Shown here: positions 7,428 to 45,267 of the stretch, one piece after another | How positions within the stretch are numbered: the first letter of the stretch is position 1 | Layout: each line of letters opens with the position of its first letter | Source of the DNA: Archangium violaceum | Lineage (GTDB): Bacteria > Myxococcota > Myxococcia > Myxococcales > Myxococcaceae | DNA length: 64,000 bases | Direction of reading: 5' to 3' | Assembly: GCF_016887565.1 (NCBI RefSeq) | Contig: NZ_CP069396.1 | Span: 3,375,001 to 3,439,000 of the forward strand | The notes under the pieces: model-generated | Told to the model about the DNA's origin: nothing | Seen by the model: only the letters and a program-made list of their open reading frames with translations | Database searches by the model: none | Position numbers and translations under genes: made by a program

Positions 7428-9355
7428 GGCGAGGACTCCGTGTGCGCTGCTGGAAGCACGCACCGTAACAGAGCCCCCTGCCCCGGAGGGCTCTCGGCTT
7501 GCAAGCGGCCGCCGTGCGCCTCGACGATGGAGCGGCTGATGGACAGCCCCATGCCCAGCCCCTGCTCCTTGGTGGAGTAGAAGGGCTCGAAGATGAGGGC
7601 CAGCCGCGACGGCTCGATCCCTCCTCCCGAGTCCTGCACGCTCAGCTCCACCTGCCCCGGGCCAGGCGAGGCGGTGCGGACCCGCAGCTGGCGCTGGCCC
7701 GCGGGGACATCGGCCATGGCATCCATGGCGTTGATGAGCAGGTTGAGCACCACCTGTTGGAGCTGGATTCCGTCCCCCTGGACGGCGGGCAGAGACGGGG
7801 CCAGCGCCAGCTGCAGGGTCGCGCCGCGCAGGTGCATGTCGTTGGCCAACAGGCGAGCCACCTCGCGCACCAGGTCATTGAGCGAGTGGAGCTCCTGCCG
7901 GGGCTCCCCCCGCTTGAGCAGCGCGCGCATGCGGTGAATGACTTCGCCCGCGCGCTTGTCGTCGGAGATGATGTCCCCGAGGGCCTCGCGCACCTCGTCC
8001 AGCTCCATGGGGGTGGCGTTCAGCAGGCGGCGTGCGGCCTGGGCGTTGCTGAGGATGGCGGCCAGGGGCTGGTTGAGCTCATGAGCCAGTGAGGCGGCCA
8101 GCTCGCCCAGGGCGGCCACCCGGCTCACGTGGGCCAGCTGATCCAGGGTTCGACGCGCCTCCATCTCCGCGAGTTTCTCCAGGCGTTGGCGCTCGAGGAG
8201 CTCGGCCTGGGCACGCATGCGGCGGCGGCGCTCCACCACGAGCCCCCCGGCCACCAGCGCCTGCAGGCCGCTGATCGTCAGGGCCCCCAGGACCCACCAG
8301 CGGTAGCGCTCCCAGAGCGTGGGTTCGTCGAAGGCGAGCCGCACCTCGGGAGGCACCCGCTCGCGGGGGATGCCCCAGCGCCGCAGCGCGCGGGCATCGA
8401 CCGTCGGCGTGTCCACGGGTGCCGGCTTCAGGGGCGCGAGGAATTCCTCCTGCTCTCCGCGCAACACGCGGGAGGTGAGCATGCCCAGCTGTTGGCCCAC
8501 GGCCTCGTAGCTGACGAGCGCTCCGCCGACGAACCCCAGACCCAGGACGGTGTCGTGGAGGGCGAAGCAGGGCCGGTTGCTGGCGGAGAGCAACATGCGT
8601 GCGATCTCGCGCCCCACGAAGGGTCTCCCGCTGGGATCGGTCATGAAGGTGAAGGTGAGGACAGTGGTGTCGTCCGGCAGGGTCCTCGCGCGCTCGAGCA
8701 GCTCGGCCAGCGGCAGGTTGCTCAGATCGATGAGCTCCAGCCCCCGCTGCGCCAGCAGCGGTTGCAGCTCTCGCACCATCTGCTCCTGCTGAGCGCGCTC
8801 CCAGGGACTGGAGCCGTTGACGAGCGCCAGCCTCCGTGTGCCAGGCAGCATCTGCAGGGCCAGCTCCGCGGTGGCCCGCATGTCATAATGCAGCCAGAGG
8901 CCCGCCACCCGCTCCGGGCGAGGCTGCTGCTCCCAGAGCCGCTCGTCCTCGGAGAGGACGATCATCGGGATATCCGGCCACAGCTCCCGGCGCAGCTGCA
9001 GGGCCAACTGGACGGCGTCGGAGCGGAAGGCGATGAGGGCATCCGGCCGGCGCTCCCGGTACTTGGCCAGATACCAGGTGTGCAGGGCGTGTGTGTAGGC
9101 AGGCCCGCGGGCCCAACCCAGATCCAGGCTCTCGACATCCAGAGTGATCGGGCCGTCCTGGGCCTCCCACAAGGAGGAGCGGAGACTGGCGACGAGCGTC
9201 GCCATGGCGGGCAGCGCCGTATCCTCGGGAATGAGCAGGAGCACGGACTTTCCAGCCGGACGCGCCTCCTGGGCCACCGCCTGGGAGGGCAGCAGCGATA
9301 GGATGCAGAAGACAAAGACCATGCGCCAGGACATGGTGGACACTTTGAACCGCAT
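7424..9355 (-). CDS. Sensor histidine kinase with periplasmic ABC-substrate-binding-like input domain
   Basis: About 643 residues from ATG 9355. A signal sequence (MVFVFCILSLLPSQAVAQ) is followed by a long periplasmic domain (about 30-340) resembling the periplasmic-binding-like sensor domain of PBP1/ABC-sub-bind kinases. A membrane segment lies near residue 350-372, then a short coiled coil. HisKA has its phosphoacceptor His at about 425 in LAHELNQPLAAILSNAQ, and HATPase_c has N (VLNLLINAMDAM), G1 (DSGGGI) and G2 (GLGMGLSISRSIV) boxes. The ELNQPL wording is that of FixL/DctB-like kinases. The frame extends upstream to 10108, but that part is a decayed TPR gene, so I used the signal-peptide start. 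Three closely spaced ATGs (9355, 9334, 9322) are possible. Confidence 0.85.
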   Translation of the reverse strand: MRFKVSTMSWRMVFVFCILSLLPSQAVAQEARPAGKSVLLLIPEDTALPAMATLVASLRSSLWEAQDGPITLDVESLDLGWARGPAYTHALHTWYLAKYRERRPDALIAFRSDAVQLALQLRRELWPDIPMIVLSEDERLWEQQPRPERVAGLWLHYDMRATAELALQMLPGTRRLALVNGSSPWERAQQEQMVRELQPLLAQRGLELIDLSNLPLAELLERARTLPDDTTVLTFTFMTDPSGRPFVGREIARMLLSASNRPCFALHDTVLGLGFVGGALVSYEAVGQQLGMLTSRVLRGEQEEFLAPLKPAPVDTPTVDARALRRWGIPRERVPPEVRLAFDEPTLWERYRWWVLGALTISGLQALVAGGLVVERRRRMRAQAELLERQRLEKLAEMEARRTLDQLAHVSRVAALGELAASLAHELNQPLAAILSNAQAARRLLNATPMELDEVREALGDIISDDKRAGEVIHRMRALLKRGEPRQELHSLNDLVREVARLLANDMHLRGATLQLALAPSLPAVQGDGIQLQQVVLNLLINAMDAMADVPAGQRQLRVRTASPGPGQVELSVQDSGGGIEPSRLALIFEPFYSTKEQGLGMGLSISRSIVEAHGGRLQAESPPGQGALLRCVLPAAHTESSP

Positions 9356-11054: not shown

Positions 11055-11825
11055 CTACATGCACACGCCGCTCATGCCCGGGAAGGAAGCGCAGTTGTTG
11101 CTGGCGCACTGTTCGTTGCTCGCGCAGGGCATGCCAGGAGCGCCGGAGCTGCAGAAGCCGAGGACCGCATTGGTATAGGGCTTCACGCAGTTCCAGTTGG
11201 AGGGGCAGTTCGAGTTGTCCTTGCACATGCCCTCCATGCAGAAGCGTCCCTTGCCGCTGAGGTAGCCGTCGTTGCAGACGGCGCCGAACTGGCCCGTCGG
11301 GCACACGCCGCTCTGCGGGCACGGCGGGAACGAGGCGCAGTAGGCGTCCTGCTTCGTGTTATTCTGCTCGTTCGGGTCGACGCAGATGGCGTACTTGTCG
11401 CAGCCGTCCTCCGCGGAGCCCGCCCTGTCCGGGTCGCACGTGGGCTTCACCTCGGGCGGCTTGAGGCTGCAGAAGTTCTTGAGACACACCTGCGTCTCGG
11501 CGCACTGGCTGTCCGAGGTGCACGTGGGCACCGTCTTGTTCTTGCAGAAGAACGGCGGGCCGATGTCCTCGGTGTCGCAGTACATGCTGTCACCGCAGTC
11601 CTTGTTGGAGGTGCAGCCCAGGGCGCAGATGCCGTTGAAGCAGAACTGGCCGTCGGGACACCTGTGGGTGGCGTTGCACAGGCCCTGCGGGAGGGTGTCT
11701 CCGCCGCCGTTGTTGCTCCCGCCGTTGTTGCCGCCTCCGTTGTTGGTGCCATTGCCTTCGCCGCCCGAGCTGTTGCCACAGCCCACCGCCAGCACCAGGA
11801 GGAAAGCCATCATCATCCGCTTCAT
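11055..11825 (-). CDS. Cysteine-rich lipoprotein with Asn/Gly spacer
   Basis: The 256-residue product starts at ATG 11825 with GAGGG at a good distance. The signal ends LVLAVGC (Cys16). It is followed by a Gly/Asn-rich spacer (NNGGGNNGGSNNGGG), then cysteine repeats of the CPDGQFCFNGICALGC type to the C-terminus, about 26 cysteines in all. Architecture (lipid anchor, flexible tether, disulfide-rich head) matches the gene at 9979-10944, which lies 110 bases downstream on the same strand. An upstream in-frame ATG at 11945 would bury the signal and is rejected. Role unknown; a surface-exposed binding protein is the simplest reading. Confidence 0.8.
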   Translation of the reverse strand: MKRMMMAFLLVLAVGCGNSSGGEGNGTNNGGGNNGGSNNGGGDTLPQGLCNATHRCPDGQFCFNGICALGCTSNKDCGDSMYCDTEDIGPPFFCKNKTVPTCTSDSQCAETQVCLKNFCSLKPPEVKPTCDPDRAGSAEDGCDKYAICVDPNEQNNTKQDAYCASFPPCPQSGVCPTGQFGAVCNDGYLSGKGRFCMEGMCKDNSNCPSNWNCVKPYTNAVLGFCSSGAPGMPCASNEQCASNNCASFPGMSGVCM

Positions 11826-29312: not shown

Positions 29313-30253
29313 TGGTCGCTGTGGTGTGGTTGGTGGCCGCCGTCTCGATGCCTGGCTCGGGGCGTGTAGCGATGCGCGCCACGGGTTGCCCACCAGGCGT
29401 CGAACCTGAGCTGCGCCGGCTGCTGGCGGTCGAGCTCAAGGTGCCCGTCGACGCGGCGTCCAGCGAGGGTGACACGCTGGTGACCGTCGACTGCACGGCG
29501 CCGCGCTACAGGGTGGCGCTCGAGGTGTTGAGCCGAAAGCCCGAGCAGTTCGAGGTCGACACCTCCGACATCAGCGGGTTGGCCGTTCCCCGAACGGTCG
29601 CGTTGTTGGTGGCCGAAGCCGTCGCGCGGCTGTGGTCTTCGCCCCCAGCGGAGCCTCCCCACCCGCCGGTCGAGGCCCCGCCCGCCCCACAGGCCCCGCC
29701 TCCTCCACCGACCCCGCCCGCCCCGCAGGGTGCGCCCGCTCCCATCGCTGAGCCGGGCCGGGTGCAGCTCGGCCTGTTCGGTGTCGGCCGCTCGGGGGCG
29801 GTGCCGCTGTTTGGCGGGGGGCTTGCGGCCGACGTGCGGCTTGGGAGCTGGGTGGGCATGCGCCTCGACGTGGCGTCGCTGCGGGGAGGAGCACAGCGGG
29901 CCTCGGGCTCGGTGTCGGCGACGCTGGTCGATGGGGGTGTCACCTTCGACGTGCGGGCCGAGCGGGCGCGGTGGATGGTTCGGGGCGGCGTCGGGCTGCG
30001 CGGCGGGCTCGGGGTGCTCAAGGGACTGCCCGCGGAAGGGCATGTGGGGGCTGTCACGCAGGGCGTGCTCTGGGGTCCCCAGGTGGGGGTGAGCGGCGAG
30101 TGGCGGCCGTGGAGGTGGCTTGCACTCGGGCTGGGCCTCGATGGAGCCGTCTGGGCCCCGCGCCTCGAGGGCACCGTGGTGGGCGAGTCGCCCGTTCGCG
30201 TCGGCGGCGCCTTCGGCTCGCTCTGGTTCTCGGGCGGCGTGCGCGGGTGGTAG
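29312..30253 (+). CDS. Periplasmic/outer-membrane protein with Pro-rich linker
   Basis: Roughly 313 residues, from ATG 29312 (GTG 29309 also possible). A hydrophobic N-terminus (VAVVWLVAAVSM) leads to an alpha/beta domain of about 100 residues with two cysteines. A proline-rich linker (PPAPQAPPPPPTPPAPQ) follows, then a Gly/Val/Arg beta-barrel-like part (GRVQLGLFGVGRSGAVPLFG) to the C-terminus. The order is the same as in the protein at 20818-22227 in the divergent cluster. No enzyme motif is present. Third in the sigma operon, it may be the surface partner of the cytochrome that follows 13 bases downstream. Confidence 0.7.
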   Translation: MVAVVWLVAAVSMPGSGRVAMRATGCPPGVEPELRRLLAVELKVPVDAASSEGDTLVTVDCTAPRYRVALEVLSRKPEQFEVDTSDISGLAVPRTVALLVAEAVARLWSSPPAEPPHPPVEAPPAPQAPPPPPTPPAPQGAPAPIAEPGRVQLGLFGVGRSGAVPLFGGGLAADVRLGSWVGMRLDVASLRGGAQRASGSVSATLVDGGVTFDVRAERARWMVRGGVGLRGGLGVLKGLPAEGHVGAVTQGVLWGPQVGVSGEWRPWRWLALGLGLDGAVWAPRLEGTVVGESPVRVGGAFGSLWFSGGVRGW

Positions 30254-30266
30254 ACTGGCGAAGCCG

Positions 30267-32186
30267 ATGCGCAGACGGTCGCCCGACATGCTGGTGCTGG
30301 CGCTGGTGCTCGCGGGGTGCGAGCCGGTCAAGCTCGGTGGCGGCGCTGGGGTGGTGCTCGGTCCCGGCCCGCAGCAGTGCCGGCAGGCGTCGCTCCCCCG
30401 GGTGACCCCGCTGTTCGCCGAAGGCCCCGCCGAGACCGGCCCCATCATCCGCCACCGGGAGGACGGCGTCCTCGTCACCGAGGTCGCCGGGCGGGTGCGC
30501 GGCCGTCATGAGCGCGAGGAGCGCTTCGGTTCCTTCGACACGCGCTCGTTCGAGAACCGGAGCTACCGGCTCGTGGTCGAAGACGCGGTCGCGGCCGGCC
30601 GTTCCGAAATCAAGATCACGTACTACCCCATCGCCGATGTCTCGATGTACGGCCCAATCACCAACTTCCGCAGCTGGAAGAAGTACGGCCTCGAGGGAAA
30701 CCAGAACGGGGGCTACACCTTTCACGTCAACCAGCAGATGCGTCAGGTGTCGCCGCGCCAGCTCGATCAGACGGTGACCGACAACGTCCGCGAAGGCCGG
30801 CCGCTCCGCGCGGGTGACATCCTCGACTTCGAGCTCGGCATCTACCTTGCCGGCGCCGATCCCATGGACCCCGCCCCCATTGCCGGCGGGTCGTCCTATT
30901 TCTCCGACACCTTCCGCTACCAGGTCGGCCTCGGCGGCCTCACTCCAGAGACCTTCGACTCCGCCGGCATGTTGGGGCCTCCTCCCGACGCCCGCCTCGG
31001 CGGAGGCACCACCGTGCCATTCGTCGCCCTCGCCGACGGCACCCCGGTCGAGCCGAAGTACGCGCTCTCGCAGTTGGCGCTCAACATCCAGTGGCCACAC
31101 CCTCAAGGGTTTCTCGAAGGCCGCCGGCTCTTCTACACCGAGCTCGACACGGGCGCCCACGTCGAGGCGGGCAACCCGCCCCTACCGTTGCAGGACGTGC
31201 TGGGGCCGCTGTTCAACGCCAGGAGCTGCATCGCCTGCCATGCCTTCAACGGCCGCGGCGTGTTGCCGCCGGTGGGAGAGCAGGTGCAATCGCTGGTGCT
31301 CAGGCTGACCGGCGAGCCGGAATTCGGCGACCAGCTTCAGCCCCAGGAGGCCCCGGTGCGGCTTTCGCGCATCGAGCCGCAGCCGGTGACGCTCAGCGAC
31401 GGCGAGGTGGTGATGCTGCACCGGCCGGTGTTCGACGCCGGCCGGCCGCTGCGCGCGTCGGCGCGGCTGGCGCCGGCTCTGGTCGGCCTGGGGCTGCTCG
31501 AGGCGGTCGACGAATCGACCATCCTGGCGGCCGCCGACGAGACCGACTGCGACGGGGACGGCATCTCGGGCCGCCCTGTGCTGAGCAGAGGCGCGCCGGG
31601 TGAAGAACCGCGGCTCGGCCGCTTTGGCTGGAAGGCTGAGCACCCGTCGGTCTCCGCGCAGGTCGACGCCGAGCTCGAGGCCCACCTCGGAGTGGGGGTG
31701 ACGGCGAGCGCGCTCAGCGGCGAAGACCGGTCTCGCCTCGTCACCTATCTGCGGCTGCTCGGGGTCATACCGCAGCGCGTGACCTCGCCGGTGCAGGTCC
31801 GTCGCGGCGCCGAGGTGTTCGCCGCGGTGGGTTGTGGCGCCTGTCACCTGCGCGAGCTGACGACGGGTGGGCGCCACCCGTTCGAGGAGCTCCGTGCACA
31901 GACGGTGCACCCCTATACCGACCTGCTGCTTCACGACATGGGCGCGGGGCTGGCGGACGACTCCGGCCTGCCCGAGGCGAGTGAATGGCGCACGGCTCCA
32001 CTGTGGGGCCTGGGCTTCACCGCGCAGGTGTCTGGCGCCGTCAACCTGCTGCACGATGGGAGGGCCGGCTCGGTGCTCGAGGCGGTGCTGTGGCACGGCG
32101 GGGAAGCGCAGGCGGCGCGGGACGCGGTGGTGGCGCTGCCGCGAGAAGACCGCCTGGCGTTGCTCACCTTCCTCGACAGCCTCTGA
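30267..32186 (+). CDS. Di-haem cytochrome c of the DHOR family, lipoprotein (second copy)
   Basis: 639 residues. The signal MRRRSPDMLVLALVLAGC gives a lipoprotein. An N-terminal beta-rich part carries TYYPIADVSMYGPITNFRSW; haem motifs CIACH (about residue 321) and CGACH (about 523) follow. The C-terminal DHOR pattern is TVHPYTDLLLHDMGAGL, SEWRTAPLWGLGF, LLHDGRA, VLWHGGEA. It is a paralogue of the protein at 17206-19542 with the same order of parts, but shorter. It is the last gene of the sigma/anti-sigma operon, so expression is probably under that sigma factor. A near-identical copy of its last 298 coding bases plus 3' region is found at 44893-45267. Confidence 0.9.
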   Translation: MRRRSPDMLVLALVLAGCEPVKLGGGAGVVLGPGPQQCRQASLPRVTPLFAEGPAETGPIIRHREDGVLVTEVAGRVRGRHEREERFGSFDTRSFENRSYRLVVEDAVAAGRSEIKITYYPIADVSMYGPITNFRSWKKYGLEGNQNGGYTFHVNQQMRQVSPRQLDQTVTDNVREGRPLRAGDILDFELGIYLAGADPMDPAPIAGGSSYFSDTFRYQVGLGGLTPETFDSAGMLGPPPDARLGGGTTVPFVALADGTPVEPKYALSQLALNIQWPHPQGFLEGRRLFYTELDTGAHVEAGNPPLPLQDVLGPLFNARSCIACHAFNGRGVLPPVGEQVQSLVLRLTGEPEFGDQLQPQEAPVRLSRIEPQPVTLSDGEVVMLHRPVFDAGRPLRASARLAPALVGLGLLEAVDESTILAAADETDCDGDGISGRPVLSRGAPGEEPRLGRFGWKAEHPSVSAQVDAELEAHLGVGVTASALSGEDRSRLVTYLRLLGVIPQRVTSPVQVRRGAEVFAAVGCGACHLRELTTGGRHPFEELRAQTVHPYTDLLLHDMGAGLADDSGLPEASEWRTAPLWGLGFTAQVSGAVNLLHDGRAGSVLEAVLWHGGEAQAARDAVVALPREDRLALLTFLDSL

Positions 32187-32210
32187 CGTGCCAAAACGTG
32201 CACCGGCGCT

Positions 32211-33763: not shown

Positions 33764-34155
33764 GCCAATTTCATGTACAGTAACGCGCGCACCGTACGCT
33801 GCTTGTCCTCCTCATCCAGTCCTTGCCAGCACGGCAGTGGCGCCAGCTCCAACTCCACCGGTTCGGCCCATTCTTCGGCGAAGGGCCCTGGCTGCGCCGC
33901 CAGGTACTCGCTCGTGCGTCCACTCCAGCGCTTCGTCCAGATGAACCACCGGAAGAGCCGCCGCGCAGGACCCAGCAACTGAGGCAGGCACGTGAGGCCC
34001 GGCCACTCGGCACTCCTCTCCACCAGTCCTTCCTTCACTCCGTGGGCGAGCATGTAGCTCAGTCGTCCCACCAACGCGGTGTCGTCCAGCACCGGCTCGG
34101 CGGAGTAGCGCTTTGACTCCGTCTCGGCGCCCCGGGGGGCCCGGAGTTCTTTGAC
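33748..34155 (-). pseudogene. REP-associated tyrosine transposase-like fragment
   Basis: The C-terminal half of a Y1/RAYT-like protein: LDDTALVGRLSYMLAHGVKE, GLVERSAEWPG...PRRLFRWF-like and LLYMKLACAHP. Proteins of this type are common in myxobacteria. The catalytic HUH part and tyrosine lie in the missing 5' section. The fragment ends upstream at about 34155, exactly where the foreign-looking island starts. Confidence 0.5.
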
Positions 34156-34178
34156 ACCAGCCCTCGAGCCGGAGATTT

Positions 34179-34193
34179 GTATCTCACTGTATC
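34179..34193 (+). promoter_or_regulatory. Direct-repeat box GTATC-N5-GTATC before the ohr operon
   Basis: GTATCTCACTGTATC has two GTATC half-sites 10 bases apart, as OmpR-type regulators bind. It lies upstream of the SnoaL remnant and ohr gene. The same box, inverted, occurs at 37778-37792. The island's own OmpR-type regulator (39674-40414) is the natural candidate to bind both. Confidence 0.5.
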
Positions 34194-34297
34194 TGGAGCG
34201 GCTACAGACACACAACATTGAACTGAGACCGGTTCGGGACACATCCCGGATACGTTGCGGGCCTTGAATGCGGTCATCCGAGAAACAGGACCGCATC

Positions 34298-34447
34298 ATG
34301 AATACACCGATAGAGGCTTCACTCGCATTGCTGGCCGGCACCCTCACCGTCGCCTCGACCTGCGTGCGGCAACCTACCTGATCAACAAGAAGGACCAGGG
34401 AAACCGAAGCCGCCATCCGCGCCCTGCTCGCCGAACCGAACCAAGTC
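34298..34447 (+). pseudogene. Secreted SnoaL-like protein, decayed
   Basis: ATG 34298 begins MNTPIEASLALLAGTLTVAS, a signal-like start that stops after 27 codons. A second frame then gives ETEAAIRALLAEPNQV, the typical first helix of SnoaL/SgcJ-type proteins. The rest of the domain is missing and the next gene follows at 34494. This is a gene lost to a frameshift and deletion at the head of the island operon. Confidence 0.45.
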
Positions 34448-34493
34448 TGTCGCTCCACCGTTGCATCACTCAATCCACCTGAAAGGAAGCATC

Positions 34494-34910
34494 ATGAGCA
34501 AGATCGAAAAAGTCCTCTACACCGGCAAGACCCACACCACCGGCGGCCGCGACGGTGTCGCGCAAAGCGGCGATGGCCGCCTGAACATCAAGCTGTCCGC
34601 CCCCGGCAGCCACGGCGCCGGCACCAACCCGGAGCAGCTGTTCGCCGCCGGCTGGTCGGCCTGCTTCATCGGAGCCATGGGCCTGGCCGCCAAGGAAAAG
34701 AAGGTGGCCCTTCCCGCCGACACCGCGGTCGATGCCGAAGTCGACCTCGGTACCGGCAACGGCGGGTTCTTCCTGCAGGCGCGCCTCAACGTGAGCCTGC
34801 CCGGCCTGCCGCGCGATGTTGCGCAAGCATTGGTCGATGCTGCGCACCAGACCTGCCCGTACTCGAAGATGACGCGCGGCAACATCGACGTGAGCATCAC
34901 CCTGGCCTGA
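34494..34910 (+). CDS. ohr: Organic hydroperoxide resistance protein (Ohr/OsmC family)
   Basis: The 138-residue protein reduces organic peroxides by a dithiol mechanism in this family. Both catalytic cysteines are present: Cys57 in GWSACFIGA and Cys121 in HQTCPYSKM, spaced as in Ohr. YTGKTHTTGGRDG at the N-terminus is the usual Ohr start and carries a conserved Arg. The ATG at 34494 follows AAAGGAAG. It is cytoplasmic. A secreted hydrolase gene follows 28 bases downstream in the same direction. No OhrR regulator is adjacent; instead a GTATC-type direct repeat lies upstream. Confidence 0.95.
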   Translation: MSKIEKVLYTGKTHTTGGRDGVAQSGDGRLNIKLSAPGSHGAGTNPEQLFAAGWSACFIGAMGLAAKEKKVALPADTAVDAEVDLGTGNGGFFLQARLNVSLPGLPRDVAQALVDAAHQTCPYSKMTRGNIDVSITLA

Positions 34911-34938
34911 AGCCCCAGTCCGTACGGAAGGAACCATC

Positions 34939-35745
34939 ATGAAGAACCTGCTGCTCTCTCTCGCCGCTTCGAGCGTCCTTGCCGCCGTCGTACCGACGGC
35001 CCATGCCGAAGCACCCATCACTGCCGTACAGGGCACCGTCGCCAAGCCCACCATCGTGCTGATCCACGGCGCCTTTGCCGACTCGAGCAGCTGGGACGGT
35101 GTGGCAAAGAAGCTCACGGCCAAGGGCTATCCGGTGCTGAGCGTGGCCAATCCGCTGCGCAGTGTCGGCAATGACGCGCAATATGCCGCCAGCGTGATCG
35201 GCGCCGTCAAGGGCCCGTTGGTCCTAGTCGGCCACTCCTACGGCGGCATGGTGATTTCCAAGGCTGCCGAGGGCAACCCCGAAGTGAAGGCGCTGGTCTA
35301 CGTCGCCGCCTTCGCGCCCGAGCAGGGCGAGACCGTCGCCGGCCTAGCCGGCAAGTTTCCCGGCGGCACGCTGGGCGATGCGCTCGCCGATCCGGTGGCG
35401 CTGGCTGACGGCGGCAAGGAGCTCTACATCCGCCAGGACAAGTTCCACCAACAGTTCGCCGCCGACGTGGCGCCCAAGCAAGCCGCGTTGATGGCCGCCG
35501 GCCAGCGCCCGGTGACCGTGGCCGCGCTCAATGAGGCCGCGAGCGGTTCTGCCTGGAAGCAGTTGCCGTCCTACTTCGTCTATGGCACCGCCGACAAGAA
35601 CATCCCGCTCGAAGGCCTGCGCTTCATGGCCAGGCGCGCCAACCCGAAGGATGTCGTCGAAGTGAAGGGCGCTTCGCATGTGGTCATGGTCTCGCACCCG
35701 GATGCGGTAGCGAAGGTGATCGAAGAGGCTGCCCAAGCAAAGTAA
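34939..35745 (+). CDS. Secreted alpha/beta hydrolase
   Basis: 268 residues with a cleavable signal (SVLAAVVPTAHAEA). The alpha/beta fold shows the oxyanion motif LIHGAFADSSSW, the nucleophile Ser in VGHSYGGM and the catalytic His in GASHVVMVSHP. Close relatives are annotated only as alpha/beta hydrolases and occur beside ohr in several Proteobacteria. The ester substrate is unknown. A GGAAGGAA ribosome site precedes the start. The gene at 38001-38372 is a paralogue that has lost its catalytic core. Confidence 0.9.
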   Translation: MKNLLLSLAASSVLAAVVPTAHAEAPITAVQGTVAKPTIVLIHGAFADSSSWDGVAKKLTAKGYPVLSVANPLRSVGNDAQYAASVIGAVKGPLVLVGHSYGGMVISKAAEGNPEVKALVYVAAFAPEQGETVAGLAGKFPGGTLGDALADPVALADGGKELYIRQDKFHQQFAADVAPKQAALMAAGQRPVTVAALNEAASGSAWKQLPSYFVYGTADKNIPLEGLRFMARRANPKDVVEVKGASHVVMVSHPDAVAKVIEEAAQAK

Positions 35746-35807
35746 TCAATACCGACCGGATCGGCATGCACTGCCGATCCGGCGAACAATCCTCGAATGA
35801 GAAATTC

Positions 35808-36869
35808 ATGTCAGAAGAATTCAACCAGCAGCGTCGCGGTTTTCTCGGTACGGCAGCCTTCGGCCTGCTTGCAACCCAGCTCGGCCTGATGGGCAATGCC
35901 GAAGCCGCGCCGGTCGTGCAAGACAGCACCCCCAGCGACAGAGGTATCACCGACGCCGGCACCCGCTTCTCGACGCTGAAACAGATCAAAGCCGGCGTGC
36001 TCAACGTCGGTTATGCCGAAGCGGGCCCCGCCGATGGCTACCCCATCCTGCTGCTGCATGGCTGGCCCTATGACATCCACGCGTTCGTAGACGTCGCACC
36101 CATCCTTGCCGCAGCCGGCTATCGCGTCATCATTCCGCATTTGCGCGGTTACGGCACGACGCGCTTTCTCTCTGCCGATACGCTGCGCAACGGGCAGCAG
36201 TCCGTGTTCACCGCCGATGCGATTGCCTTCATGGATGCGCTCAAGGTCGACAAGGCCGTCGTCGCCGGTTTCGACTGGGGCGCGCGCATCGCCGACACGC
36301 TGGCCGCGCTGTGGCCGGAACGTTTCACGGCGCTGGTGTCGGTCAGCGGCTATCTGATCGGCAGCCAGGAGGCGAACCGAAAGCCCCTGCCGCCCAAGGC
36401 CGAGCTGCAGTGGTGGTATCAGTACTACTTCGCCACCGAGCGCGGCGAGGCGGGTTATCGGCAATACACGCACGAGTTCGCCCGACTGATCTGGGAACTG
36501 GCGTCGCCGCAGTGGAAGTTCGACGATGCGACCTTCGCGCGCTCCGCTGCGTCGCTCGACAATCCCGACCACGTCGCGATCTCGATCAGCAACTATCGCT
36601 GGCGTCTGGGCCTGGCGCCGAGCGAGGCGAAGTACGAAGCGCTGGAAAAAAAGCTCGCGCAGTTTCCCAACATCACTGTCCCGACCATCACGATGGAGGG
36701 CGACGCCAATGGTGCTCCGCATCCGGACCCCAAGGTCTACGCCAAGAAATTCCTAGGAAAGTACGAGCATCGCCACCTTACCGGCGGCATCGGCCACAAC
36801 CTGCCGCAGGAAGCACCGCGCGCATTCGCCCAGGCGGTTCTCGACGTGGCGAAGCTGGTTGCACGCTAA
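35808..36869 (+). CDS. Exported alpha/beta hydrolase, epoxide-hydrolase/haloalkane-dehalogenase-like
   Basis: 353 residues from ATG 35808. A Tat-like signal (QQRRGFLGTAAFGLLATQLG) suggests folded export. The fold shows LLLHGWPYDIHAF (HGxP oxyanion motif), the nucleophile Asp in VAGFDWGARIA, and the catalytic His in GGIGHNLPQEAP. An Asp nucleophile places it with epoxide hydrolases and dehalogenases. An upstream in-frame ATG at 35766 would bury the signal. A terminator follows the stop. The C-terminal 50 residues have a homologue in the gene fragment at 43402-43572 at the far end of the island. Confidence 0.9.
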   Translation: MSEEFNQQRRGFLGTAAFGLLATQLGLMGNAEAAPVVQDSTPSDRGITDAGTRFSTLKQIKAGVLNVGYAEAGPADGYPILLLHGWPYDIHAFVDVAPILAAAGYRVIIPHLRGYGTTRFLSADTLRNGQQSVFTADAIAFMDALKVDKAVVAGFDWGARIADTLAALWPERFTALVSVSGYLIGSQEANRKPLPPKAELQWWYQYYFATERGEAGYRQYTHEFARLIWELASPQWKFDDATFARSAASLDNPDHVAISISNYRWRLGLAPSEAKYEALEKKLAQFPNITVPTITMEGDANGAPHPDPKVYAKKFLGKYEHRHLTGGIGHNLPQEAPRAFAQAVLDVAKLVAR

Positions 36870-36880
36870 GCTACAAAACG

Positions 36881-36913
36881 AAAGGCCCGGTACCGGACGG
36901 TAGCGGGCCTTTT
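36881..36913 (+). terminator. Rho-independent terminator of the ohr-hydrolase operon
   Basis: AAAGGCCCG (36881-36889) pairs with CGGGCCTTT (36904-36912) and ends in a T-run. The stem is symmetrical and A/T-flanked, so it could also serve the convergent minus-strand gene. Confidence 0.8.
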
Positions 36914-36984
36914 GCCATCAGTGCTGGATTTCGTTCAGACCTTCTTGGGCAGGCCCCGCAGCGAGAAGCGCGGCAGCGTCCCGT

Positions 36985-37659
36985 TCAGGCCTCGGTCGGA
37001 GCCAGGAGAGACCGCGTGCCGCGCCGGAGGGCCTGGGCGCGCCCGGCGATCAGCCGCACTACCACCGCGGTGAACAGCAGCGCCGAAGGCACGGCGTACC
37101 AGTAGTTCATCGGCACGCGCTTGAAATACGAAAAGGTGAACACCGCCGCGATTACCCACATGCCGGTGACGTGCAGCCGTCGCCAGGCGGTCGGGCCCAT
37201 GCGCCGGGCAAGACCGCGATGGGAGGTCACCGCCAGCAGCAGGATGGACACGTAGCCGAGCGTGCCGGGCAGGTTGGTCAGGGTGGAGCGGCTGGGCCAG
37301 AACTCGGGATTGAGCTGGCCGAAGGCGTAGATCGCGATCGCGTGCAGCAGGTGCGAGAACGCGAACGACAGGCCGACGATGCGACGCTCGCGCAGCAATG
37401 CCTGGGTGAACGGGCCGGGCAGCAGCGAGGCGAAGGAGGACGCGGTGAACGCGGCCAGGAACAGCACGAAGGAGGTACGGGCGGTGACGCGGATGGCGCG
37501 GCGGCTGCCTTCCACGGCGTCGGGGCCGAGCAGATAGGCGGCGCCCGTGGCGCCCATCAGCAGCGCGGCCAGCATCAGGAACAATTTCCAGCCGCCGAAG
37601 CGGCGGGGCGAGGGGAGCGGGTTCTCGCGGATGGGGGAGGCGGGATGCTGCGTTGACAT
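36985..37659 (-). CDS. MsrQ/ferric-reductase-like haem membrane protein
   Basis: 224 residues from ATG 37659 behind CAGGAG. Five to six membrane helices cover the protein (for example LFLMLAALLMGATGAAYLLG, a VLFLAAFTASSF helix and SILLLAVTSHRGL). Conserved histidines in SHLLHAIAIYAFG and WRRLHVTGMWV are those that hold haem b in the ferric-reductase-like (YedZ/MsrQ) domain. MsrQ passes electrons to the periplasmic methionine-sulfoxide reductase MsrP; no msrP lies in the window. The thioredoxin and CcdA genes nearby support a periplasmic repair or redox role. The gene is divergent from the next hydrolase remnant and a GTATC box lies between them. Confidence 0.8.
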   Translation of the reverse strand: MSTQHPASPIRENPLPSPRRFGGWKLFLMLAALLMGATGAAYLLGPDAVEGSRRAIRVTARTSFVLFLAAFTASSFASLLPGPFTQALLRERRIVGLSFAFSHLLHAIAIYAFGQLNPEFWPSRSTLTNLPGTLGYVSILLLAVTSHRGLARRMGPTAWRRLHVTGMWVIAAVFTFSYFKRVPMNYWYAVPSALLFTAVVVRLIAGRAQALRRGTRSLLAPTEA

Positions 37660-37777
37660 GGACGGCTCCTGGCAAGGGTGGCGGTGAGCGGAGGGTGGCC
37701 ATTGCAAGGGGGCGAGGTATCCGTACCGTGTCGGGCGGGCCGTCGTTTTGTCAGCGCCTGTGTCGCGGACGGCGGTC

Positions 37778-37792
37778 GATACATTGCGATAC
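37778..37792 (-). promoter_or_regulatory. Direct-repeat box GTATC-N5-GTATC (minus orientation)
   Basis: GATACATTGCGATAC on the plus strand is GTATC-GCAAT-GTATC on the minus strand, the same half-sites and spacing as at 34179. It lies 119 bases upstream of the MsrQ-like gene start and upstream of the divergent hydrolase/CcdA/redoxin/two-component operon. An OmpR-type operator is the likely reading. Confidence 0.5.
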
Positions 37793-38000
37793 GAAGTGCC
37801 CGGCGGCGGGCGCGGTGGGAGACTGGCACGGGGAGAGGTCACGCGACCGTGCATCGGCGTGGCCGGCGCGGGCGTTGTGTGTCGAAACGTAGCCCCGCGC
37901 CGCGCCGACACCTTGTGTGACAAGAAGCCGGCCGCGCGGAAACAGCGGAGATACAGTCCTGGCCCGCAATGGGCGCTCCTCTTCCACAGGAGTGCATTCC

Positions 38001-38372
38001 ATGATTCGCAAGACGATGCTGGCCGCGCTGATGGCCACCGCCCTGATTCCGGCCGCCGCGGGTTCGCGTCCGGTGCATGTCGAGCCGGCCGCGCCCACGG
38101 TGAGCCTGGTGCATGGCGCCTTCGCCGACGGTTCGAGCTGGAGCAAGGTCATCCCGCGCCTGGAGGCCAGGGGAGCGCCCGCCTTGGCCGTGCAGAACCC
38201 GCTGACGTCGCTGCAGGACGACGTGGCAGCCACGCGCCGCGCCATCGCCGCCGCGCCGGGCAAGGTGGTGCTGGTCGGGATGCTGTCCCATCCAGGTGAG
38301 GTCGCCGACGTCATCCTCGAGGCCGCCGGGGCGAAGTCGGCCGCTCCGTTGCCGGCCAAGGCGGGTGGCTGA
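38001..38372 (+). pseudogene. Alpha/beta hydrolase with its catalytic core deleted
   Basis: ATG 38001 begins a signal peptide (MLAALMATALIPAAAGS), then TVSLVHGAFADGSSWSKVIP, as in the hydrolase at 34939. After APGKVVLVG the frame jumps straight to MLSHPGEVADVILEAAGAK, which is the last helix of the fold. The GHSYGG nucleophile elbow and about 130 residues are missing without loss of frame. The 123-residue product cannot be a hydrolase. The downstream ccdA-like gene starts two bases after its stop, so retention of the frame may serve translational coupling. Confidence 0.75.
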
Positions 38373-38373
38373 C

Positions 38374-39066
38374 ATGTGGGCCTTCGTCCTGGCCGCGCTG
38401 GCTGGCGTGGCCACCATCCTCTCTCCGTGCGTGCTGCCGATGCTGCCCATCGTGCTGGCGCGCGGGGCAGGCGGCGACCGCCGCGAACCGCTGCTGATCG
38501 TCGTCGGCTTCGTTGCCTCCTTCGCCGCCGGCGGCATCGCCATCGGAGCGCTGGCGGCGTCCTCCGGCCAGTTCGAGGCGGGCGTGCGCGTGGTCGCGCT
38601 CGTGGTGCTGCTGCTGGCCGGGCTGGCCTGCGTGTGGCCGACGCCATTCGAACGGCTGCGGCAGCGCTGGCTGGCCGGCTTCCGTCTGTTCGCCTGGCAA
38701 CCGCGAGCGGCTGGCGCGGGCGGCGCGCTGCTGGTCGGAGTCTCGCTTGGCATCGCCTGGACGCCATGCGCCGGGCCCGTGCTGGCCTCGGTGCTGGCGC
38801 TGGCCGCCAGCGCCCAGGCCACCGCGCGCGCCTGCGCCCTGCTCGGCGTGTACGCGCTCGGCGCGGCCACTCCGTTGCTGGCCCTGGTCCACGGCGGTCG
38901 CTGGGCCAGTGCCCGGCTGCGCCCGCTGCAACGCCACACCGCCTGGGTGCGGCGCGGCTTCGGCGTCTGCGCCGTGGCCATGGCCCTGCTCCAGTTGTGG
39001 CAGCTCGATGCCGCGCTCACCGCGCGACTGCTGCCATGGCTGCCCTCCATCTCCACCGGACTGTGA
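38374..39066 (+). CDS. CcdA/DsbD-type thiol-electron transporter
   Basis: 230 residues with six membrane helices. Two conserved cysteine motifs face each other across the bundle: LSPCVLPMLPIV near residue 18 and IAWTPCAGPVLAS near residue 130, both as in CcdA and the core of DsbD. It carries reducing equivalents from cytoplasmic thioredoxin to periplasmic thiol proteins. Two bases separate it from the gene upstream, and the redoxin gene starts two bases after its stop, so the three are one transcription and translation unit. The pair CcdA + redoxin matches the two halves of fused DipZ proteins. Confidence 0.9.
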   Translation: MWAFVLAALAGVATILSPCVLPMLPIVLARGAGGDRREPLLIVVGFVASFAAGGIAIGALAASSGQFEAGVRVVALVVLLLAGLACVWPTPFERLRQRWLAGFRLFAWQPRAAGAGGALLVGVSLGIAWTPCAGPVLASVLALAASAQATARACALLGVYALGAATPLLALVHGGRWASARLRPLQRHTAWVRRGFGVCAVAMALLQLWQLDAALTARLLPWLPSISTGL

Positions 39067-39068
39067 AC

Positions 39069-39608
39069 ATGCCTACCTTCCTTCGTGTCTTTCTCATCGC
39101 CGCCATCGCCGCCGTGTCCATCGTGCTGGCCTGGTCCTCCGCTCGCGCCGACGAGGCGCGGCTGGCCACTCTCACCACCGCGCCGGACTTCAGCGGCGGC
39201 GGTGAGTGGATCAACAGCCCGCCGTTGCGCATGTCGCAGCTGCGCGGCAAGGTCGTGCTGGTCGAGTTCTGGACCTACTCGTGCATCAACTGCCTGCGCG
39301 TGGCGCCTTACGTCTCGCAATGGCACGCGCGCTACGCCGATCAGGGCCTAGTCGTGGTGGGAGTGCACACGCCCGAATACGGCTACGAACGCGTGGGCGC
39401 CAACGTGCGCGAGGCGGTGCGGCATCTGGACATCCAGCATCCGGTGGTGCAGGACAACGGCTATCGGATCTGGAACGCCTATGGCAACCAGTACTGGCCC
39501 GCGCTCTACTTGATCGACAGAGAGGGCAGGGTGGTATACCGCCATTTCGGCGAGGGTGCCTACGACCGCACCGAGGCGCGGATCCGGGCCCTGCTGGCCG
39601 CGCGCTGA
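39069..39608 (+). CDS. Periplasmic redoxin, DipZ C-terminal-domain type
   Basis: 179 residues. A signal or anchor helix (LRVFLIAAIAAVSIVLAWSS) is followed by a thioredoxin fold. The active site is CINC (Cys72, Cys75) within VEFWTYSCINCLR, the wording of the DipZ C-terminal domain and TlpA-like redoxins. The cis-Pro region is YWPALYLIDREG. It should be reduced by the CcdA-type protein encoded directly upstream and in turn reduce periplasmic disulfides or peroxides. The next genes, a two-component pair, follow after 65 bases in the same direction. Confidence 0.9.
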   Translation: MPTFLRVFLIAAIAAVSIVLAWSSARADEARLATLTTAPDFSGGGEWINSPPLRMSQLRGKVVLVEFWTYSCINCLRVAPYVSQWHARYADQGLVVVGVHTPEYGYERVGANVREAVRHLDIQHPVVQDNGYRIWNAYGNQYWPALYLIDREGRVVYRHFGEGAYDRTEARIRALLAAR

Positions 39609-39673: not shown

Positions 39674-40414
39674 ATGGCTCATACAGACCACATCCTCATC
39701 GTCGACGACGACCGCGAGATCCGCCGCATGGTCGGCGATTACCTGCAGCGCAACGGCCTGCGCACCACGCTCGCCGCCGACGGCCGCGAGATGCGCGCGG
39801 CGCTGGACACCAGCGACGTCGATCTGATCGTGCTCGACGTGATGATGCCCGGTGAGGATGGTCTGTCGCTGTGCCGCAACCTGCGCGCCGGCAAGCACCG
39901 CGGCGTGCCGGTGGTGATGCTCACCGCGCGCGACGACGAAACCGATCGCATCATCGGCCTGGAGATGGGTGCGGACGACTACGTGGTCAAGCCGTTCTCC
40001 GCGCGCGAGCTGCTGGCGCGCATCAACGCGGTGCTCCGGCGCACGCGCATGCTGCCGCCCAACCTGCAGGTCACCGAGGCCGGCCGGCTGATCGGCTTTG
40101 GCCAGTGGCGGCTGGACACCGCCGCGCGCCACCTGCTCGACGAAGATGGCACCGCCTATCCGCTCAGCGGCGCGGAGTTCCGCCTGCTGCGCGTGTTCCT
40201 CGACCACCCGCAGCGCGTGCTCAGCCGCGACCAGTTGCTCAACCTCACCCGGGGCCGCGACGCCGAGCTGTTCGACCGCTCCATCGACCTGCTCGTCAGC
40301 CGCCTGCGCCAGCGCCTGCGCGACGACGCGCGCGAGCAGGCCTACATCAAGACCGTGCGCAGCGAGGGCTACGTGTTCTGCCAGCCCGTGGTCCTGCTCG
40401 GCGAGAACGCATGA
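39674..40414 (+). CDS. OmpR-family response regulator
   Basis: 246 residues. The receiver domain has acidic residues DDD near 11-13, phosphoacceptor Asp55 in VLDVMMPG, Thr in MLTARDDE and Lys in VVKPFSARE. The C-terminal winged helix (FRLLRVFLDHPQRVLSRDQL, then RSIDLLVSRLRQRLRDD and IKTVRSEGYVF) is that of OmpR/PhoB. Such regulators bind two half-sites 10 bases apart, which is the spacing of the GTATC boxes at 34179 and 37778. The stop overlaps the kinase start (ATGA). Confidence 0.95.
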   Translation: MAHTDHILIVDDDREIRRMVGDYLQRNGLRTTLAADGREMRAALDTSDVDLIVLDVMMPGEDGLSLCRNLRAGKHRGVPVVMLTARDDETDRIIGLEMGADDYVVKPFSARELLARINAVLRRTRMLPPNLQVTEAGRLIGFGQWRLDTAARHLLDEDGTAYPLSGAEFRLLRVFLDHPQRVLSRDQLLNLTRGRDAELFDRSIDLLVSRLRQRLRDDAREQAYIKTVRSEGYVFCQPVVLLGENA

Positions 40415-41763
40415 ACGCCGCCCCGAGCACCGGCTGGCGGCGCCTGCTGCCACGCACCCTCGCCGCGCGCCTGGCCCTGATCCTGTTCTCCGGATTGCTG
40501 CTCGCGCACGCGCTGTCCTTCGCTCTGCTGTTCTCCGAGCGCTACATGGTCGCGCGTTCGATGATGCTCACCCACCTGGACCAGGACGTGGTCGTCAGCG
40601 TGGCCCTGCTCGAACGCCTGAGCCCGGCCGAGCGCGCGCGATGGGCGCCCCGCCTGGAGCGGCGCACCTACCGCTACCTGCTCGGCCCGGCGCGGCCCGG
40701 CGTGCCGCTGACCAGCGACCGGGCGCGCGAGGTCACCGCCCTGATCGACCGCAGCCTGGACCATCGCTACCGCTTGCAGGCGCGCACGGTGTCCACCTCG
40801 CCGGAGCGCTTCGAGGTGCAGCTCACCCTGGCCGATGGCCAGCCGCTGACCATCGAGGTCACGCCCTCGGTGATGCCGATCGCGCGCTGGCTGCCGGTGG
40901 TGCTGGCGGCGCAGCTGGCGCTGCTGTTGCTGTGCGCGTGGCTGGCGGTGCGGCTGGCGACGAGGCCGCTGGTGCAGCTCGCCGACGCGGTCGAGCGGCT
41001 GGACCCGGCGCGCGCACATCCGCCGCTGCCGCGGGAAGGGCCGGTGGAAGTGGTCAAGGCCGCCACCGCGTTCAATGCGATGCAGGCACGCATCGGCCAC
41101 TATCTCGCGGAGCGGTTGCAGATCCTCGCCGCGATCTCGCACGACCTGCAGACTCCGATCACGCGCATGAAGTTGCGCCTGGAAGCGATGGAGGAGGGCG
41201 CCGACCGCGATCGCCTGATCGACGACCTGGAGCAGTTGCTGCAACTGGTGCGCGAGGGCATCGCCTACGCGCGCAGCACCCACGGGGCCACCGGCCCGGC
41301 GGTGTGGCTGGACCTGCACGCATTGCTCGACAGCGTGGTGTGCGACTACCAGGACGCGGGCAAGCCGGTCACGCTGGGCGAATGCGCGCGCGCTTCGTTG
41401 AGCACGCGGCCACCGACATTGCGGCGCATCGTCGAGAACCTGATCGACAACGCGGTGAAGTACGGCGGCAGCGCCGAGGTCGGCGTGCGCCGGCTCGACG
41501 ACGGGCGCATGGCCGTGGACGTGTGCGACCGGGGCCCGGGCATTCCCGAACAGGAGATGCAGGCGGTGCTGCAACCGTTCTACCGGCTGGAAAGCTCGCG
41601 CAACCGCGATACCGGCGGCACCGGGCTGGGGCTGGCCATCGCCCAGCAGTTGGTGGTCACGCTGGGCGGCGAGCTCGTGCTCGCCAACCGTGACGGTGGT
41701 GGCCTGCGCGCGACGCTGCTGCTGCCGGTGGCGCCGGCATCCACGCCCACGCCGGCGCGCTAG
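40411..41763 (+). CDS. Sensor histidine kinase of the EnvZ/OmpR type
   Basis: 450 residues. An N-terminal helix (LALILFSGLLLAHALSFALL) and a second helix (LPVVLAAQLALLLLCAWLAV, about 170-190) frame a periplasmic domain of about 120 residues. HAMP follows, then HisKA with His244 in AAISHDLQTPITRMKLRLEA, and HATPase_c with N box VENLIDNAVKYGG, G1 DRGPGIP and G2 GTGLGLAIAQQL. Coupling by ATGA to the OmpR-type gene makes them a pair. By context it probably senses a periplasmic redox or oxidant signal; this is inference. Confidence 0.95.
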   Translation: MNAAPSTGWRRLLPRTLAARLALILFSGLLLAHALSFALLFSERYMVARSMMLTHLDQDVVVSVALLERLSPAERARWAPRLERRTYRYLLGPARPGVPLTSDRAREVTALIDRSLDHRYRLQARTVSTSPERFEVQLTLADGQPLTIEVTPSVMPIARWLPVVLAAQLALLLLCAWLAVRLATRPLVQLADAVERLDPARAHPPLPREGPVEVVKAATAFNAMQARIGHYLAERLQILAAISHDLQTPITRMKLRLEAMEEGADRDRLIDDLEQLLQLVREGIAYARSTHGATGPAVWLDLHALLDSVVCDYQDAGKPVTLGECARASLSTRPPTLRRIVENLIDNAVKYGGSAEVGVRRLDDGRMAVDVCDRGPGIPEQEMQAVLQPFYRLESSRNRDTGGTGLGLAIAQQLVVTLGGELVLANRDGGGLRATLLLPVAPASTPTPAR

Positions 41764-42802: not shown

Positions 42803-43369
42803 TCACCGCAGGGCGCGCAGCGCGAGACGGCCCAGGCCGCGGAGCTGGTCGGTGTCGGCGCCTCCCCGGGCGGCGATGCGGATGGCGGCGAAGCTCGAGA
42901 TGAGGAAACCCGCCGCCTCTTCGGGGTTCAGATCGACGCCGACGTCGCCGTCGGCCTGGGCCGCGCGCACGCGTTCGACGATCGCGCGGTGCAGCGCCCG
43001 CTCGGCGGCGTCGTGGATCTTCGCCAGCTCGGCCCGCGCGCGGCCGAACTCGCAGATGGACCCGATCCCCAGACAGGCCTGCCCGGCGTCCTCGACCAGG
43101 CGCTCCACCATGGCCCGAAGGCCTTCGATGGCCCGCGGCCGACTGCGCAGGGCCGCGACGTGGGCGCCGCCTTCCAGGGCCGAATAGCGCTGTACGGCGG
43201 CGCAATAGAGGCCCCATTTGTCGCCGAAGGTGTCGTAGAGGCTCTGGCGGCCGATCCCCATGGCCTTGACCAGCATGTCGGCCGAGGTCCCCTCGAAGCC
43301 ATGCTCGCGGAACACGCCGATCGCGGCGTCCAGCGCCTCATCCGTGTCGAACGCCTTGGGTCTGGCCAT
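42803..43369 (-). CDS. TetR-family transcriptional regulator
   Basis: 188 residues from ATG 43369. The N-terminal HTH is clear (FDTDEALDAAIGVFREHGFE, then GTSADMLVKAMGIGRQSLYD and TFGDKWGLYCAAV). The C-terminal part, helical with Cys in QACLGIGSICEF, resembles the AcrR/TetR C-terminal domains of regulators that control oxidoreductases in response to electrophiles. It is encoded directly upstream of the quinone oxidoreductase on the same strand, so it probably represses it. Confidence 0.9.
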   Translation of the reverse strand: MARPKAFDTDEALDAAIGVFREHGFEGTSADMLVKAMGIGRQSLYDTFGDKWGLYCAAVQRYSALEGGAHVAALRSRPRAIEGLRAMVERLVEDAGQACLGIGSICEFGRARAELAKIHDAAERALHRAIVERVRAAQADGDVGVDLNPEEAAGFLISSFAAIRIAARGGADTDQLRGLGRLALRALR

Positions 43370-43401: not shown

Positions 43402-43572
43402 TCAAGAAAGGGCGGTGGGCCGCCGCTCTTTTCCGATCCAGGTCAGTTTGGTCACGTCGAGCACCGCCCGGGCGAAGGCCTTGGGCGCCTCCTGCGGCAG
43501 GTTGTGGCCGATCCCGCCGGAGATCAGGCGATGGGCGTAGGGCCCGGAAAACTTCGCCCTGTAGGCCGCCGG
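43402..43572 (-). pseudogene. Alpha/beta hydrolase, C-terminal fragment
   Basis: Encodes YRAKFSGPYAHRLISGGIGH then NLPQEAPKAFARAVLDVTKL. It is homologous to the last 50 residues of the hydrolase at 35808-36869 (GGIGHNLPQEAPRAFAQAVL). The upstream part is cut at about 43573. The position at the right edge of the island and its likeness to a gene at the left suggest that the ends derive from related hydrolase genes. Confidence 0.7.
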
Positions 43573-44892: not shown

Positions 44893-45267
44893 GCTCCGTG
44901 CACAGACGGTGCACCCCTATACCGACCTGCTGCTTCACGACATGGGCGCGGGGCTGGCGGACGACTCCGGCCTGCCCGAGGCGAGTGAATGGCGCACGGC
45001 TCCACTGTGGGGCCTGGGCTTCACCGCGCAGGTGTCTGGCGCCGTCAACCTGCTGCACGATGGGAGGGCCGGCTCGGTGCTCGAGGCGGTGCTGTGGCAC
45101 GGCGGGGAAGCGCAGGCGGCGCGGGACGCGGTGGTGGCGCTGCCGCGAGAAGACCGCCTGGCGCTGCTCGCCTTCCTCGACAGCCTCTGACGTGCCAGAA
45201 CGTGCACCGGCGCTGACCCGAGCTTCGCTCGTCGGGTCTCTCTGGACGCAGTCCGGAGACGACACAT
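44893..45267 (+). repeat. 375-bp duplicate of the DHOR gene 3' end
   Basis: Identical to 31889-32263 except for three substitutions I can count (two within the last codons, one just after the stop), with no indels. It carries the last 98 codons of the di-haem cytochrome gene, stop, hairpin and 30 bases beyond. There is no start codon or haem motif, so it is not a gene. The left junction is to group II intron sequence, the right one to the XRE gene 5' part. Confidence 0.95.

Follow-up and report, generated by a model that had tools for sequence, protein, structure and literature searches.

Among described regulatory systems, OmpR/EnvZ of Escherichia coli, PhoB with its pho-box promoter, and DsbRS of Pseudomonas aeruginosa come closest to what we find in a 64,000-nucleotide stretch of Archangium violaceum DNA (contig NZ_CP069396.1, positions 3,375,001 to 3,439,000; "the window" below is this whole stretch). 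A gene island in the window encodes an OmpR-family response regulator (RR) and an EnvZ-like sensor kinase, and carries paired GTATC-N5-GTATC boxes that we take, from sequence comparison, to be operators of this two-component system (probability roughly 0.8). In PhoB-dependent promoters, a tandem pho box with an 11-bp period lies about 10 bp before the -10 element and replaces the -35 element. The DsbRS sensor uses Cys82, and the published DsbR site is TTA-N8-TTAA; the conserved site here is TGTATC-N4-TGTATC. DsbRS responds to copper and controls periplasmic thiol-disulfide genes and copper tolerance (PMC10141476), and P. fluorescens has dsbRS-dsbDEG (PMC13101516).

The RR is 44% identical to OmpR over 236 residues and the kinase is 29% identical to EnvZ, with OmpR and EnvZ as their best NCBIfam models, and Pfam assigns the RR a receiver (Response_reg, 107.5 bits) and a winged-helix C-terminal domain (Trans_reg_C, 76.3 bits). 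The half-sites of the box are arranged in tandem with a 10-bp period, like those of OmpR itself. However, both proteins fall below the curated cut-offs of the equivalog models (NF007005 for OmpR, 248.3 versus 331 bits; NF007004 for EnvZ, 174.7 versus 415 bits). Other differences include leucines in place of OmpR V203 and Q204, a TGTATC half-site rather than the TGTAAC type, a three-box promoter, and predicted envelope-stress targets with no porin among the best 25 of 54 target families. Because both proteins score below the cut-offs and the RR is 44% identical to OmpR, the system is not OmpR/EnvZ proper, and it probably works like an activator of the OmpR/PhoB type.

DsbRS is likewise a two-component system over periplasmic thiol-disulfide genes (PMC10141476), but here the surrounding genes are of CcdA/TlpA, DUF2790, hydrolase, and Ohr types, not dsbDEG. 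Pfam detected CcdA and TlpA types but no DsbG type among ten island proteins, and a dsbDEG neighborhood was not seen by eye in the open reading frames (ORFs) of 14 loci around RR relatives, for which no DsbG family search was run. The window kinase has no cysteine in its presumed periplasmic part, and the corresponding region holds none in 37 of 41 homologous loci (one cysteine in two; no alignment in two). Orthology to DsbRS was set aside on these differences in gene neighbors and kinase cysteines. An RstA-type box was also considered and set aside.

The box pair is part of a three-box promoter module

The sequence-only reading had placed one box at 34179 and a second, inverted, at 37778. Both are present letter for letter, GTATCTCACTGTATC at 34179-34193 (+) and GTATCGCAATGTATC at 37778-37792 (-), and they lie where it had put them: the first upstream of ohr, with a decayed ccdA/dsbD start in between, and the second between a divergent msrQ-like gene (starting at 37659) and a hydrolase remnant (38001). 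Exact GTATC-N5-GTATC occurs twice in the window, compared with a mean of 0.01 in shuffled sequence, and none of 100 shuffles contained at least two. With one mismatch allowed, the same two matches remain, yet 18 of 100 shuffles reach two, so the strength of the box lies in the exact match. A genome-wide count had been proposed as a check, and the box proved infrequent: 13,213,980 bases contain three exact copies, of which two are the window sites, 3.6 kb apart within the island, and the third, at 9351527, falls outside any composite module in a profile search of the genome.

Alignment of 69 distinct sites shows that conservation extends far downstream of the original box, here called Box I. 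Box I is TTTGTATC-N4-TGTATC at 0 to +14 from its first G, a direct repeat with a 10-bp period. Box II (+28 to +45) is an inverted Box I, GATACA-N4-GATACAAA-like, whose second half is often degenerate. Box III is also inverted, GACACA-N5-GATAC with an 11-bp period, and starts at +59 (18 sites), +60 (31), or +61 (5). It ends 10 bp before a -10-like TNNAAT hexamer at about +86 and occupies the -35 place. Searching for GACACN6GATAC at +59 to +61 with up to two mismatches, we found Box III in 54 of 69 sites; the upstream and reversed controls gave 2 of 69 each. Each promoter contains six half-sites: a forward tandem pair, an inverted tandem pair, and an inverted pair with an 11-bp period. Box III resembles the pho box of PhoB in its tandem form, 11-bp period, distance of about 10 bp from the -10 element, and -35 location, but differs in being inverted and accompanied by two upstream boxes.

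A two-part weight matrix, trained on 46 non-redundant sites of 51 with the window and same-genus sequences left out, detected three modules in the 64 kb. The next window score (-6.6) is a register shift of module 1, and the best of 40 first-order simulated windows reached -11.1. The modules are as follows.

Module 1, 34176..34269 (+), 84.6 bits at 34179; Box I 34179-34193, Box II 34207-34222, Box III 34238-34253 (GACACATCCCGGATAC), -10-like TTGAAT 34264-34269; faces the decayed ccdA/dsbD start and ohr-hyd1-hyd2
Module 2, 37701..37795 (-), 64.8 bits at 37792; Box I 37778-37792, Box II about 37749-37764, Box III 37717-37732, -10-like hexamer 37701-37706; faces the msrQ-like gene
Module 3, 37876..37970 (+), 29.7 bits at 37879; degenerate Box I GTGTCGAAACGTAGC 37879-37893, Box II 37907-37922, Box III GAAACAGCGGAGATAC 37939-37954, -10-like CGCAAT 37965-37970; faces hyd3 remnant-ccdA-tlpA-RR-kinase

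The original observation is confirmed: the box pair is the visible part of a conserved promoter module of about 90 bases. The direct repeat and 10-bp period of Box I were borne out. Boxes II and III at each site had been overlooked, as had the module at 37879 (+), which was missed because its Box I is degenerate; it has an E value of 9e-5 in its own genome with the profile, and the same module is present in the sister species. The genes of the island are listed below.

34298..34381 (+), remnant of a ccdA/dsbD N terminus (MNTPIEASLALLAGTLTVAS...), longer (about 65 residues) in the sister species
34494..34910 (+), ohr, OsmC/Ohr-family peroxiredoxin
34939..35745 (+), hyd1, alpha/beta hydrolase
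35808..36869 (+), hyd2, alpha/beta hydrolase with a Tat-like RRGF start
36985..37659 (-), MsrQ-like membrane protein of the ferric-reductase type
38001..38372 (+), hyd3, alpha/beta hydrolase remnant, internally deleted
38371..39066 (+), CcdA/DsbD-type membrane protein
39069..39608 (+), TlpA/ResA-type thioredoxin
39674..40414 (+), OmpR-family RR, proposed reader of the box; Leu206/Leu207 align with OmpR V203/Q204
40411..41763 (+), EnvZ-like HAMP sensor kinase; presumed periplasmic part without cysteine
42803, TetR-type regulator gene, within the island

Since module 3 faces the operon that holds the RR, the system probably regulates itself through it, judging from this arrangement. Downstream of module 1, the presumed transcription start (about 34276, inferred) is followed by the decayed first codons of ccdA/dsbD (34298) and then by ohr; the module probably once served a ccdA/dsbD gene that has since decayed ahead of ohr. 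The island had been said to encode exactly one OmpR-type regulator, and Pfam finds one among the island proteins (39674-40414), which is also the only own-genome regulator match inside the window among the matches listed.

The module accompanies the regulator across genomes

Conservation beside homologous operons had been suggested as a further check, and box and spacing are indeed kept beside RR relatives in alpha-, beta-, and gammaproteobacteria. The relatives are the best 80 of 567 loci from a scan of species genomes, and their identity falls from about 80% in Lysobacter and Pseudomonas, by way of Rhizobium, Burkholderia, and Massilia relatives, to about 51%. Within the genus, one genome has an RR copy 98% identical to ours and another a copy 82% identical; the former locus (L016) carries both boxes and the latter (L017) an exact box before its msrQ-like gene. 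Among 36 of the 38 close loci (L055 and L057 left out), GTATC-Nk-GTATC with k=5 has 35 exact matches in 26 loci, and every other k from 0 to 20 has 0-2. The sites precede the regulator operon, ccdA/dsbD, a secreted hydrolase, ohr, or msrQ-like genes, in differing neighborhoods, and several loci have two modules back to back. In whole genomes, TTGTATCNNNNTGTATC occurs at 46 sites in 30 of 38 genomes with a close-clade RR (reversed control, 1 site) and at 6 sites in 5 of 39 with more distant RRs (reversed control, 0); the latter count covers 39 of 42 genomes, with L067, L081, and L089 left out.

We also searched genomes with R1, a sequence-only profile of the module. R1 detected exactly three modules in the A. 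violaceum genome, which are those of the window, the same three in the sister genome G001, and one in G005. Modules are present in all three genomes that have the RR (own, G001, and G005, among the matches listed); the 36 other relatives gave one partial match (G029) and none in the remaining 35 at an E cutoff of 0.01. Across 79 Pseudomonas genomes, all 44 with the RR have the module, compared with 2 of the 35 without it (Fisher 3e-20, not corrected for kinship; E cutoffs of 1e-90 for the RR and 1e-5 for the module). This panel was drawn from the genus of G041, which is Pseudomonas by the title of L023, and G041 itself supplied training sites. Module and OmpR-like regulator move together between distant bacteria, and the module probably serves to switch on genes for cell-envelope stress.

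Half-site letters vary with the recognition helix

For 84 regulators, TGTnnC-N4-TGTnnC was found within 1.5 kb upstream in 56, compared with 19 matches in the reversed control. GC-rich half-sites were then discarded, a T or A was demanded ahead of the site, and symmetric pairs took precedence, which reduced the 84 loci to 53. The middle two letters of their half-sites were compared with the residues aligned with OmpR V203/Q204. Regulators with LL mostly have AT/AT (22 of 26), VQ has AA/AA (4 of 7), VL has TT/TT (3 of 4), NQ or NH has CG/CG (3 of 5), and IQ has AT/TT (4 of 8); the rest are IL (2) and LM (1). A change of half-site letters with residues 206/207 is expected if this RR reads the box. 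The Box III region varies too: in four of the seven VQ-type loci (L062, L064, L065, and L067, but not L059, L073, or L079), (G/C)TTAC replaces GATAC.

On balance, we lean toward an undescribed, horizontally mobile OmpR-like system whose six-half-site promoter is conserved through Alpha-, Beta-, and Gammaproteobacteria and has also reached this bacterium with its large genome. Its paralogous clades would follow a readable code, the middle two half-site letters being set by two residues of the recognition helix (LL, TGTATC; VQ, TGTAAC; VL, TGTTTC; NQ/NH, TGTCGC). We found no paper on the box in a literature search that covered few subscription papers.

Predicted regulon and candidate signals

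The regulon set comprises 100 of the 101 non-own modules listed at E values of 4e-8 or lower, one having been skipped because it sat at a contig edge; many of them had been used in training the profile. For each module, a rule based on coding bias chose the first ORF from about 85 to 417 bp; the rule is fallible (for example, at L206, L217, and L273). With the search confined to that range, 88 of the 100 first ORFs have a start codon 100-200 bp from Box I. By Pfam (best 25 of 54 families), alpha/beta hydrolases are the most frequent first ORFs (22 of 100), followed by thioredoxin-like (15), DUF2790 (15), DUF4148 (14), and CcdA/DsbD proteins (10); cupin (4), OsmC (3), MNIO, epoxide-hydrolase N terminus, DoxX, LTXXQ, and formamidase (2 each) are rarer. 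On inspection, many begin with export-signal-like sequences. The predicted targets read as an envelope regulon against thiol, peroxide, and metal damage.

In Pseudomonas loci L023 (module at 11127, -), L237, L251, L254, and L274, a module precedes bufferin-type genes (MNIO enzyme, GEGKCG-repeat, DUF2282-like). Inspection by eye places a GEGKCG-repeat protein behind a module in L237 and a DUF2282-like protein behind one in L274. The direct placement of some modules before MNIO and GEGKCG-repeat genes, as in copper bufferin operons, suggests that the system may control bufferin-type genes in Pseudomonas. In contrast, Buf1 clusters are accompanied by sigma factor/NrsF genes, and the main text of that report does not contain the terms two-component or response regulator (PMC12452194).

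Judging from these genes, the system probably senses periplasmic stress caused by thiol-reactive metals or oxidants. Copper is the leading candidate because of literature links for three of the families: bufferins are tied to copper stress (PMC12452194), a DUF4148 operon is among those most strongly induced by arsenite and antimonite (PMC11719878), and four of seven DUF2790 genes respond to lanthanides (PMC11520305). It is possible, if doubtful, that the system senses reactive chlorine or an organic peroxide rather than copper or a different thiol-binding metal. Such a signal would fit the Ohr, MsrQ-like, hydrolase, and DoxX genes near or behind modules; the bufferin, DUF4148, and DUF2790 links speak against it.

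Proposed mechanism and alternative explanations

We propose that phosphorylated RR dimers would bind Boxes I and II cooperatively and then occupy Box III, recruiting RNA polymerase as a substitute for the -35 element. Activation would drive the system's own operon and induce envelope genes for the repair of thiol, peroxide, and metal damage. The island probably reached this bacterium as a mobile package in which regulator and operators moved together. The earlier reading of the boxes as dimer sites for the island's single OmpR-type regulator largely holds, on comparative grounds, with the correction that the unit is a three-box module present three times rather than twice.

Several observations weigh against this interpretation. 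The case for the RR as reader is built from co-occurrence and covariation, and that for the candidate signal from gene content. Among the 42 distant loci, k=5 and k=13 yield 3 exact matches each. Module 3 is weak. The partial module in G029 (C18:25528-25602) occurs without the RR, as do modules in Pseudomonas G126 and G137; these may be orphan sites, or mark missed regulators or another reader. A qualifying site is lacking in 31 of the 84 loci, the VQ-type locus L062 carries TGTATC, and the covariation follows the RR tree, the loci being related by descent and the counts not independent. The orientation of Box III, opposite to that of Box I, is atypical of an activator, and the spacing of Box III is less clean than that of Box I (k=6, 54 sites; k=4, 42; k=8, 27). 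The scores at k=4 and k=8 probably arise because ACAC overlaps itself, but they leave the 11-bp period on weaker ground than the 10-bp period of Box I. Beyond the close clade, many loci have no recognizable Box III; in IQ-type loci, for example, Boxes I and II are clear but Box III is not.

A chance match or genome-wide repeat would account for a pattern that was, after all, picked once the sequence had been read. We consider this extremely improbable given three occurrences in 13.2 Mb, a fixed spacing conserved in other genomes, and three modules scoring far above simulated windows. The module might instead be read by another factor, such as the TetR-type regulator encoded at 42803 inside the island or a housekeeping OmpR, and merely travel with this RR; the two Pseudomonas genomes that have modules without an RR match could be explained in this way. 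This too seems improbable, since presence of the module follows the RR (44/44 versus 2/35), the half-site letters follow its helix, the sites flank its gene across genera with different neighbors, and tandem half-sites with a 10-bp period are OmpR-like. As to the last point, a TGTAACCAAAAGTAAA tandem, OmpR site F1, is present upstream of E. coli ompF, but by letter count another place in that region matched better, so the tandem carries no weight either way.

It is also conceivable, though unlikely, that the RR binds but mainly represses, or that Boxes I and II serve the divergent gene, making the promoter a two-way switch rather than a one-way activator. The inverted arrangement of Boxes I and II and the back-to-back modules would suit such a switch, and the database record of OmpR calls it a dual regulator. 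However, Box III and the -10-like hexamer lie at a fixed distance on one side, the start codon is 100-200 bp from Box I in most predicted targets within the range searched, and Box III takes the -35 place, as expected of an activator-dependent promoter. A plain sigma-factor promoter in place of an operator was judged unlikely from the tandem letters. A structured RNA was set aside; no Rfam family reached its gathering score in 33900-38300, and the conserved part lies upstream of the presumed transcription start.

Operators of an activating RR remain our preferred reading, and with it an uncharacterized two-component family would acquire an operator and a predicted regulon, along with an activation geometry open to testing. 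The R1-type profile can annotate targets in many soil genomes, and it links proteins of unknown function (DUF2790, DUF4148, and secreted hydrolases) and bufferin operons to one candidate regulator. The helix and half-site series makes a DNA code of this OmpR subfamily testable, and the island offers a likely example of a regulator moving together with its operators.

Borders and repeats of the island

A 300-nt direct repeat flanks the island (31889-32188 and 44893-45192; 99% identical, 13,004 bp apart) and corresponds to the end of a 688-codon ORF at 30120-32186. Homology with the sister genome locus L016 extends from 34165, 14 bp before Box I of module 1, to about 43435 (about 97-98.5%); outside this segment, the flanks do not align with L016 within the stretch compared. 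By eye, an additional SDR-like ORF separates hyd2 from the msrQ-like gene in L016. The hydrolase gene before ccdA has suffered different internal losses in the window (38001-38372), where more of the N-terminal half is retained, and in L016 (about 8965-9285), where more of the C-terminal half is; the L017 copy is intact. An inverted 96-nt repeat (36762-36857 and 43444-43539, 79% alike) may represent the tail end of another hyd2-like gene next to the TetR-type gene.

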